Below the pieces are notes generated by a model. It had not been told where the DNA came from and ran no database searches. It saw nothing but the letters and a program-made list of their open reading frames with translations. DNA of 44,506 nucleotides from an uncultured Nitrospiraceae bacterium (GTDB lineage: Bacteria > Nitrospirota > Thermodesulfovibrionia > Thermodesulfovibrionales > SM23-35), in assembly GCA_937138415.1 (NCBI GenBank), contig CAKZPA010000039.1, positions 1 through 44,506 on the forward strand, read 5' to 3'. Below, piece after piece: positions 2,570 to 4,878 of this stretch (its first letter is position 1; each line of letters begins with the position of its first letter). The position numbers were made by a program, and so were the translations under genes.

Positions 2570-2809
2570 ATGGGAACCGTCGGAGCCTATGAGGCAAAAA
2601 CACACCTCACCAAACTTTTGGAGCGTGTTGCCAAGGGTGAGAAAATAACGATTACAAAACACGGCGTGCCCGTGGCAACACTGCAACCCGCCGACTCGTC
2701 GAAAAAGACGCCCGTGCGCGACATCATCGATCAGTTGAAGCGGTTTCGAAGCGGCCACCGCCTCGACGGACTTTCTATCCGAGACATGATCGAGGAAGGA
2801 AGACGCTGA
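2570..2809 (+). CDS. Phd/YefM-family antitoxin
   Basis: This 79-residue protein begins MGTVGAYEAKTHLTKLLERV, the typical Phd/YefM fold: a short strand, then 'EAKTHLxxLLxxVxxGExxxIxxxGxPVAxL' (about residues 7-42). The fold binds the toxin-operon promoter as a dimer. The C-terminal half (about 48-79) is polar and would wrap and neutralise the partner toxin. A good ribosome-binding site (GGAGG) lies 7-8 nt before the ATG. The stop codon overlaps the start of the downstream PIN-domain gene by one base (TGATG), the usual coupling in these operons. Expression is expected to be autorepressed by the complex, although I see no clear operator palindrome. The pair is intact although its neighbours are decayed. 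Confidence 0.9.
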   Translation: MGTVGAYEAKTHLTKLLERVAKGEKITITKHGVPVATLQPADSSKKTPVRDIIDQLKRFRSGHRLDGLSIRDMIEEGRR

Positions 2810-3240
2810 TGCCCGCACGGTTTGTGGTCGACACCTCGGTGGTCATGTCTTGGTGCTTCGAGGAGGAGGGAAACAGTTACGCGGAGGCTGTCCTCGAAAG
2901 CCTCGAATTTGCGGAGGCTTTCGTGCCCGCTATCTGGCCGCTTGAGGTGGGTAATGTTCTGCTTGTGGCTGAAAGGAAAAAGCGCCTCACCCAGGCCGCG
3001 GTCGTCCGCTTTCTCGCCCTTTTGAGCGGATTGCCCATTACCGTGGAGCAGGAAACTCCCGAGCGGATGCTCAAGGAGATCGTTTCGCTCGCGCGGGAAC
3101 ACGGACGTTCCACCTATGACGCCTCTTACCTGGACCTCGCCATGAGGTTCGATCTTCCCATCGCCACAGTGGACGCATCCCTTCTAAAAGTCACGAAAAA
3201 ATGCAAAGTCCCGGCCTTTGACCCGGCTCGAGCGCGCTAG
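2809..3240 (+). CDS. vapC: VapC-type PIN-domain toxin (ribonuclease)
   Basis: This 143-residue PIN-domain protein has the expected acidic metal-binding residues: Asp8 (FVVDTSV), Glu46 (WPLEVGN), Asp104 (TYDASYLDLA) and Asp122 (IATVDASLL). VapC toxins are Mg2+-dependent endoribonucleases, often cutting tRNA anticodon loops or 23S rRNA, and are held inactive by the antitoxin. The gene starts on the last base of the antitoxin stop codon, so the two are translationally coupled. Its 3' end overlaps the converging DUF2924 remnant (3184-3835) by 57 nt. All four catalytic positions are present, so the toxin should be active. Its RNA target cannot be read from the sequence. Confidence 0.92.
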   Translation: MPARFVVDTSVVMSWCFEEEGNSYAEAVLESLEFAEAFVPAIWPLEVGNVLLVAERKKRLTQAAVVRFLALLSGLPITVEQETPERMLKEIVSLAREHGRSTYDASYLDLAMRFDLPIATVDASLLKVTKKCKVPAFDPARAR

Positions 3241-4312: not shown

Positions 4313-4657
4313 TCAGCGGACTGAAATCTGGCTATTGGGGAGGGATTCTCCCGCTGGAAGCGGGACCGACCAAGTGGTTAATCCCGCCGGGGGCGGGACT
4401 CTCGGCGGGGATATGGTCGAGAGGTATCGCTCTATGCCTCTTTTCTTGATGTGGGTTTCGAGTCTCATAGCCTCGATGCGGGAGTGGCAAGGCATCTGCC
4501 ACACTAATCTCCACGGACCGAGGAATTTCTTTGTCCATTTTTCACCCGAACGATCCGGATCATTGTGTTCTTGCAGACGCCTGGGGAGGTATGCGGTCTG
4601 CCCGCAGTAGTAGCGGCCGGTTTTTTCACTCTGGAGGATGTAGACCCAATAGGTCAT
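4313..4657 (-). CDS. GIY-YIG nuclease-superfamily protein with repeat-encoded tail
   Basis: This 114-residue protein begins MTYWVYILQSEKTGRYYCGQ, a single-domain GIY-YIG fold of the short UvrC N-terminal-like (URI) group. The motif pair is 'YVYIL' (here WVYIL) with 'YYCG'. Then come the conserved LPRRLQEHN, GEKWTKKF, and an 'EAMRLETHIKKRGIERYL' helix carrying the catalytic Glu. The domain normally ends near residue 80. The remaining ~33 residues (PPRVPPPAGLTTWSVPLPAG and on) are encoded by a tRNA-Asn-derived repeat at 4336-4404, so the tail is probably accidental. The ATG follows directly on the T-tract of the tRNA-Asn terminator, with no Shine-Dalgarno sequence, so expression would need read-through or an internal start. 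Function is unknown. Small GIY-YIG genes are often found beside tRNA genes in environmental genomes. Confidence 0.85.
   Translation of the reverse strand: MTYWVYILQSEKTGRYYCGQTAYLPRRLQEHNDPDRSGEKWTKKFLGPWRLVWQMPCHSRIEAMRLETHIKKRGIERYLSTISPPRVPPPAGLTTWSVPLPAGESLPNSQISVR
4336..4404 (-). repeat. tRNA-Asn-derived element B, two arms replaced by 17-nt palindromes
   Basis: Read on plus, TGGGGAGGGATTC (4336-4348) matches tRNA-Asn 4706-4718. The palindrome TCCCGCTGGAAGCGGGA (4349-4365) then stands where the tRNA has GAACCC of the T-arm. CCGACCAAGTGGTTAA (4366-4381) matches tRNA-Asn again. A second palindrome, TCCCGCCGGGGGCGGGA (4382-4398), stands in place of the 10-nt anticodon-arm half. CTCT then resumes. 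So two tRNA arms are swapped for hairpins while the flanks keep tRNA identity. The element overlaps the 3' end of the GIY-YIG coding region. Confidence 0.75.
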
Positions 4658-4685
4658 AAAAAAAGCCAGGCCTTCGAGCCTGGCT
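4658..4685 (-). terminator. Rho-independent terminator of tRNA-Asn
   Basis: On the minus strand AGCCAGGC-TCGA-AGGCCTGGCT forms a stable hairpin followed by seven Ts (4658-4664). It lies 12 nt after the tRNA CCA. The next three bases are the ATG of the GIY-YIG gene. Confidence 0.85.
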
Positions 4686-4704
4686 CCTTAAGAGTGCTGG
4701 CTCC
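4659..4704. repeat. 46-nt direct repeat, copy 2
   Basis: This copy is attached to the intact tRNA-Asn gene and contains its last four bases, CCA, trailer and terminator. It matches 521-566 at 45 of 46 positions. The two copies are about 4.1 kb apart in the same orientation. Confidence 0.8.
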
Positions 4705-4773
4705 TGGGGAGGGATTCGAACCCCCGACCAAGTGGTTAACAGCCACCCGCTCTGCCGGCTGAGCTACCCAGGA
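4698..4773 (-). tRNA. tRNA-Asn (GTT)
   Basis: A 76-nt cloverleaf: acceptor TCCTGGG/CCCAGGA, D-arm with GCTCAGCCGGCAGAGC, anticodon loop CTGTTAA giving GTT (Asn), T-arm GGGGGTTCGAATCCCTCC, discriminator G and an encoded CCA. It is transcribed from the promoter at 4949-4977 together with the upstream relic at 4802-4878, and is ended by the hairpin at 4658-4685. Confidence 0.95.
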
Positions 4774-4801
4774 ATAGGTTAATCCGTGACTCCTTTCCTC
4801 A

Positions 4802-4878
4802 TCCGGGGAGCTCATGCCTGACCGACCGAGTGGTTAATCCCGCCGGGGGCGGGACTCTGCCGGCTGAGCTACCCAGGA
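4802..4878 (-). pseudogene. tRNA-Asn pseudogene (element C), palindrome in the anticodon arm
   Basis: The 5' 24 nt (TCCTGGGTAGCTCAGCCGGC and four more) are identical to tRNA-Asn. The 5' half of the anticodon arm is then replaced by TCCCGCCCCCGGCGGGA (4838-4854). TTAACCACTCGGTCGG resembles the tRNA, and the T-arm is replaced by unrelated bases. The 3' acceptor CCCCGGA (4802-4808) still pairs with TCCTGGG except at one position, and the overall length is 77 nt. The anticodon is lost, so it cannot decode. It lies between the promoter and the functional tRNA-Asn, so it should be co-transcribed. Confidence 0.75.

Follow-up and report, generated by a model that had tools for sequence, protein, structure and literature searches.

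Hairpin-armed partial tRNA copies beside a free-standing GIY-YIG nuclease gene: a probable tRNA-resident element of Nitrospirota and other bacteria

tRNA genes are favoured docking sites of mobile DNA, and the elements that to our knowledge dock there are of large size and bring an integrase with them. In the REP/BIME repeats and their RAYT transposases, short hairpins go together with a small gene of nuclease type. SegB, a free-standing homing endonuclease of the GIY-YIG kind that acts on tRNA regions, has been described from phages T4 and T6; according to the SegB passages of that paper it cuts inside tRNA genes, after which recombination amplifies the tRNA-segB unit in tandem (PMC13096335). 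GC-rich palindromes flank tRNA genes of Neurospora (Yin et al. 1981, via PMC4478555), and endonucleases have been proposed as mobilisers of mitochondrial GC clusters (Lang et al. 2014, via PMC4478555). A search of open-licence papers found no account of hairpin-armed tRNA copies together with a GIY-YIG gene.

The window, that is the whole stretch of 44,506 nucleotides that was analysed, comes from an uncultured Nitrospiraceae bacterium. Read on the minus strand, it contains leuB and a partial tRNA-Asn copy (element 2, a 5' relic); an intact tRNA-Asn gene follows, and after it come a hairpin resembling a terminator, with its T-run, a GIY-YIG gene and a further partial copy (element 1, a 3' relic). 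Two partial copies therefore flank one intact tRNA-Asn gene, and the nuclease gene stands between the latter and element 1. The intact tRNA-Asn(GTT) gene (4698-4773, minus strand, as are all parts of the locus) is the one found by ARAGORN and matches Rfam RF00005 with 66.4 bits. Element 2 begins with tRNA nt 1-24 (4855-4878), which are 100% identical to the intact gene. In place of nt 25-34, the 5' half of the anticodon arm, it has the 17-nt hairpin TCCCGCCCCCGGCGGGA (written on the tRNA strand; 4838-4854), followed by nt 35-50 with one mismatch (4822-4837) and then by decay. Further along, CTCCCCGGA is able to pair with the acceptor 5' strand. Element 1 starts with GCCGAGAG (4399-4406), by analogy with two other loci (L072, L042) a D-arm remnant, and continues with TCCCGCCCCCGGCGGGA at the same junction (4382-4398) and with nt 35-50 at 100% identity (4366-4381). 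A second hairpin of the TCCCG..CGGGA type, TCCCGCTTCCAGCGGGA, takes the place of T-arm nt 51-56 (4349-4365), and the T-arm 3' strand and acceptor 3' strand with CCA complete the element (nt 57-76, two changes; 4329-4348).

An earlier, sequence-only reading of this DNA had described tRNA-Asn relics with 17-nt palindromes, each with a 7-bp stem and a 3-nt loop. The window sequence, ARAGORN and shuffles bear this out, and the junction of the half-arm replacement that it gave as common to both relics can be refined to exactly nt 25-34. With up to 3 mismatches allowed, TCCCGCCCCCGGCGGGA has 5 matches on both strands of the window, all at this locus, where shuffles gave a mean of 0.33 and a maximum of 2. 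The relics fold with z of about -3.6 (element 2: -3.7).

The nuclease gene (4313-4657) encodes a free-standing protein of 114 aa that matches PF01541 (1e-13) with a domain at about residues 3-73. The reading frame of this GIY-YIG neighbour extends through element 1, which supplies the C-terminal tail. In three genomes of the order, which is presumably Thermodesulfovibrionales (Nitrospirota), the nuclease (G002, G018, G102) C-terminus is coded by the D arm and hairpin, with the stop in TTAA. The terminator-like hairpin and T-run, recognised from the sequence and its hairpin (4658-4685), lie between tRNA-Asn and the nuclease ATG and are identically placed at L171, L173 and L227. At all of these loci the ATG is directly 3' of the T-run (4655-4664 in the window), so expression of the nuclease may depend on read-through of the tRNA terminator. 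Elsewhere in the window, near the partial 16S rRNA gene at its start, a 46-bp copy (521-566) is 98% identical to 4659-4704, the terminator and tRNA-Asn 3' end. A 143-aa reading frame on the plus strand (2809-3240) has, by eye, the look of a PIN-domain toxin.

The 2.1-Mb genome of the window (G000) contains TCCCGC-N5-GCGGGA at 12 places, 3 of them at the window locus, and has five free-standing GIY-YIG genes plus one of UvrC size. Two of the five lie in tandem at tRNA-Ser(CGA) on contig C3 and form a second case: a tRNA-Ser 5' relic with a GIY-YIG gene occurs twice, followed by the intact tRNA-Ser and a 3' relic. The 5' relics consist of nt 1-36 and 37-53, split in the anticodon loop by a double hairpin, CTCGCCCCGGCGAG+TCCGCCCGAGGCGGA, and the identical double hairpin is borne by the 3' copy. 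Two other contigs (C36:1-75 and C44:1-75; L005, L007) share their first ~75 bp; this is a repeat with a TCCCGC hairpin (GAGATTGCCGCGTCCCGCTTTCAGCGGGACTCGCAATGAC), and the assembly is broken there.

The sequence-only reading had proposed a repeat family on a tRNA scaffold, tied to the GIY-YIG gene, and had named as the contrary outcome that these were the only copies amid random decay in relatives. The family holds up, as the arrangement is found with many isotypes and in other phyla. A pattern search for the Asn junction, GCAGAGTCCCG-N4-10-CGGGATTAACC, found it with other hairpins in 12 of the 176 genomes of the order, from six families; the reversed pattern was found in 0 of 176. The leuB-tRNA-Asn locus has both filled and empty sites among members of the same family (f1). 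In G002 the intact tRNA is followed by the nuclease and then by a relic of the form GGCAGAG-TCCCGAAGGTGTTCGGGA-TTAACC...CCA; the flank past this 3' relic (CACCAATCAAGGG..) matches the flank past the sole tRNA in a genome with an empty site (G013). The two-hairpin layout of element 1 is repeated in G018 with different hairpins, and G009 shows the mirror layout, in which a 5' relic to about nt 38 precedes the nuclease and the intact tRNA. Seven tandem 84-bp 5' relics lie upstream of an intact tRNA-Asn in G155, and the nuclease with its 3' relic is present twice in tandem in G105. In a tRNA-Asp relic (G052) the anticodon arm and T arm are each swapped for a hairpin. A tRNA-Ala copy (nt 13-74; G027) shows 100% identity and lacks any hairpin, and this fresh insertion suggests that hairpins can follow insertion. 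Two genomes (G051, G174) have kept relics along with apparent nuclease remnants.

Five Asn-type nucleases served as queries in a search by protein alone, which found 80 loci in 18 phylum-level groups; 76 of these loci were analysed. The loci are mutually related, so that nominal p-values overstate significance. ARAGORN places a tRNA within 300 bp of the nuclease in 54 of the 76 loci (14 groups), against an expectation of about 0.01 per locus, and just 3 tRNAs lie more than 900 bp away in 195 kb. tRNA and nuclease share a strand in 54 of 54 cases with a median distance of 35.5 bp, and the tRNA is upstream in 44 of these. At most tRNA-linked loci the same tRNA recurs as a partial copy across the nuclease gene, a layout which, with the same-strand rule, extends over many phyla and isotypes. 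Hairpin-armed copies may themselves pass as tRNAs, as do those called by ARAGORN at L196, L217, L219 and L228. The presence of isolates among the hosts, such as Mariniflexile maritimum M5A1M (tRNA-Arg, L222) and Niabella ginsengisoli GR10-1 (tRNA-Val, L200), rules out an artefact of metagenome assembly.

A scan without sequence assumption gave TCCCG as the commonest stem 5-mer near the nucleases (47 of 76 loci). There are 82 TCCCG hairpins near nucleases (57 kb) and 4 far from them (195 kb), a 62-fold enrichment. Of the 76 TCC[CT]G hairpins in the vicinity of tRNA-linked nucleases, 59 are flanked on both sides by 10 nt that lie in the adjacent tRNA, compared with 4 of 4987 random places. These hairpins replace relic arms at positions specific to the nuclease type: exactly nt 27-43, the whole anticodon stem-loop, in 17 loci, none of them Asn, and nt 25-34 (or nearly) in 11 loci from six phyla, exclusively Asn. 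The T arm is replaced in 6 loci and the D loop in 2. Chance palindromes are ruled out by the shuffle, reversed-pattern, near/far and random-place controls. A group I intron was likewise rejected, as an intact tRNA is present, the relic insert is a hairpin of ~15-23 nt, and Rfam gave no intron match. Shared insertion points had been taken to mean common ancestry; the family is real, but ancestry is not their sole meaning, since the replacement of the same arms by different hairpins in unrelated tRNAs points to a recurrent, nuclease-type-specific process.

The tRNA-linked nucleases are minimal GIY-YIG proteins of ~85-115 aa, the size of the catalytic domain. Catalytic-type residues are conserved in 82-83 of 83 rows (tRNA-type and related proteins), with Y6, Y17, G19, R27, H31, E67 and K71 invariant or nearly so, and all ten conserved columns are present in the window protein, which on its sequence belongs to the GIY-YIG nuclease superfamily. 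The nearest solved structures are the UPF0213 proteins 1zg2 (8.6e-11) and 1ywl, for which no link to tRNA or hairpins was found in the open-licence literature. The nuclease matched no PHROG or NCBIfam model and viral contigs yielded no relative, and membership of the SegB family was rejected on the missing PHROG match and viral-contig relative. A plasmid search gave no match and a phage search three weak ones (~40% identity). In the tree, although its resolution is weak, the nucleases group according to tRNA isotype (36 changes against 57.6 when shuffled; 0/200), and those of the Asn isotype taken singly do so too (4 against 15; 0/500). Asn-type nucleases span Nitrospirota, Thermodesulfobacteriota, Myxococcota, Verrucomicrobiota, Planctomycetota and Bacteroidota.

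The window is best read as carrying a single GIY-YIG element that resides in a tRNA gene, and the recurrence of the arrangement at many kinds of tRNA in over a dozen phyla points to an undescribed selfish element. Nuclease lineages that follow the isotype, replacement boundaries that are isotype-specific and a target gene that is directly repeated suggest a nuclease that recognises one tRNA gene. The elements are probably isotype-specific, homing-like residents of tRNA genes, whose hairpins disarm displaced copies at the likely target. A minimal, free-standing nuclease specific for a single isotype would have entered a tRNA gene, with one intact gene kept and a partial co-oriented copy left on the far side of the nuclease gene. 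The unit reads either from the intact tRNA through the nuclease to a 3' relic, or from a 5' relic through the nuclease to the intact tRNA. The nuclease would cleave its matching tRNA gene within or close to the anticodon arm, and repair from the tRNA-nuclease-relic donor, with tRNA sequences as the homology, would spread the unit by homing. Such repair would regenerate one intact tRNA gene, and may also yield tandem duplications. The hairpin would then mark a former cut site: through the exchange of arm for hairpin the displaced copy would lose its target and become uncleavable, non-functional as a tRNA and less recombinogenic with the intact gene.

Several observations count against homing. 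Relatives that have no nuclease next to the gene (G008, G029) share an identical tRNA-Asn with the window genome, and the idea that the intact tRNA was recoded for resistance was rejected on this identity. TCCCG hairpins also occur away from tRNAs, inside other repeats, as well as in genomes with no GIY-YIG match other than one of UvrC size, and the tRNA-Ala copy of G027 has none. As disarming is possible without any hairpin, the choice of the TCCCG hairpin calls for another reason. It is tentatively suggested that these elements may form an altogether new class of mobile systems, with isotype-specific GIY-YIG nucleases resident in tRNA genes across all bacteria, in which the anticodon arm of the displaced copies is swapped for a TCCCG..CGGGA hairpin owned by the system, the hairpin serving as a protein-recognised end, an immunity mark or part of a tRNA-like RNA.

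A second group of free-standing GIY-YIG genes lies away from tRNAs, with ATTCCYG..CRGGAAT-type hairpins on both sides at 6 of 22 loci of the order (L013, L073, L076, L081, L094, L097; nuclease at 1501-1720). The bracketing hairpins are dRS3-like (GTCATTCC..GGAATCCAG), and the order hairpin-nuclease-hairpin resembles a tiny transposon. Loci in G017 (L116-L126, L133) have 2-3 TCCCG..CGGGA hairpins per copy within a larger inverted repeat, GGATGAATACGGCGGATA..TATCCGCCGTATTCATCC, where they appear again as replaced inner arms. Together, this bracketing by related hairpins and the hairpins within other repeats make it possible that the hairpin is a recognition site for the protein.

It is unlikely that the GIY-YIG protein acts on and moves TCCYG..CRGGA hairpins in the fashion of RAYT and REP. 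tRNA arms, which are themselves hairpins in single-stranded DNA, would on that account be exchanged arm for hairpin, which suits the exact replacement of whole arms, the link of TCCCG hairpins to the nuclease across many phyla, the identical hairpins within other palindromic repeats and the bracketed non-tRNA group. It leaves the link between lineage and isotype and the boundaries peculiar to Asn unaccounted for, and hairpins are found without such a nuclease, as in G043, which has 31 copies and only a UvrC-sized GIY-YIG match. Nuclease presence was rejected as the cause of genome-wide hairpin numbers, since 2-60 copies against mostly 0-11 is a trend only and is confounded by kinship.

It appears quite improbable that the relics function as tRNA-like RNAs lacking an anticodon, such as decoys or regulators produced along with the nuclease. 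Stems are kept although the inner pairs 6 and 7 vary (pair 6: AT 39, CG 13, TA 3, GC 2), the outer five pairs being fixed by the selection criterion of this test, but such variation may only mirror the insertion of different hairpins. The window relics fold well, and the composite tRNA-Asp relic, in which both arms are swapped, takes a cloverleaf fold (z -3.9); low z values can come from the hairpins by themselves. The tandem arrays of 5' relics and the ARAGORN calls would also suit an RNA, but most relics lack one acceptor strand and their downstream parts decay freely.

An ordinary integrative element, whose integrase would have left the relics as attachment-site duplicates at a tRNA gene, is very improbable and is disfavoured. 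Part of the tRNA is indeed directly duplicated around inserted DNA, and the 3' relic carries the original flank. However, the insert is a nuclease gene with spacers only, no integrase was seen between the tRNA copies in the loci read, and the mechanism has no place for hairpin replacement. The partly decayed relics might recall duplicated tRNA genes that decayed at random and gained palindromes by chance; this reading is refuted by the same junctions and stem sequence in many phyla and by near-zero controls.

If the preferred reading of homing-like, isotype-specific residents of tRNA genes is correct, a minimal bacterial element of ~350 bp parasitic on tRNA genes is widespread, and some of the numerous UPF0213-type GIY-YIG genes that still await characterisation have a role. 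Many unexplained tRNA fragments would be accounted for, and each nuclease lineage would predict its own tRNA target. A nuclease family would also be tied to a class of very short palindromes, and how such repeats spread has long been a puzzle.

Among known proteins the closest solved structures, 1zg2 and 1ywl, resemble the nuclease in consisting of the catalytic domain alone. The REP/RAYT systems differ in their HUH/Y1 enzyme, which is here a GIY-YIG protein, and in that the present hairpins replace tRNA arms; no open-licence paper joining GIY-YIG with REP was found. SegB, as far as its description in the passages of PMC13096335 goes, is alike in being a GIY-YIG protein beside tRNA genes, in its wide range of isotypes and in the tandem amplification of the tRNA-nuclease unit. 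Those passages do not mention hairpin-armed partial tRNA copies, and the present elements lie on bacterial chromosomes, each nuclease lineage with its own isotype. The mitochondrial GC clusters and Neurospora palindromes, as portrayed in the relevant parts of PMC4478555, are likewise short GC-rich hairpins beside tRNA genes, whereas the elements described here are bacterial, and in them the arms of partial tRNA copies that adjoin a nuclease gene are exactly replaced.
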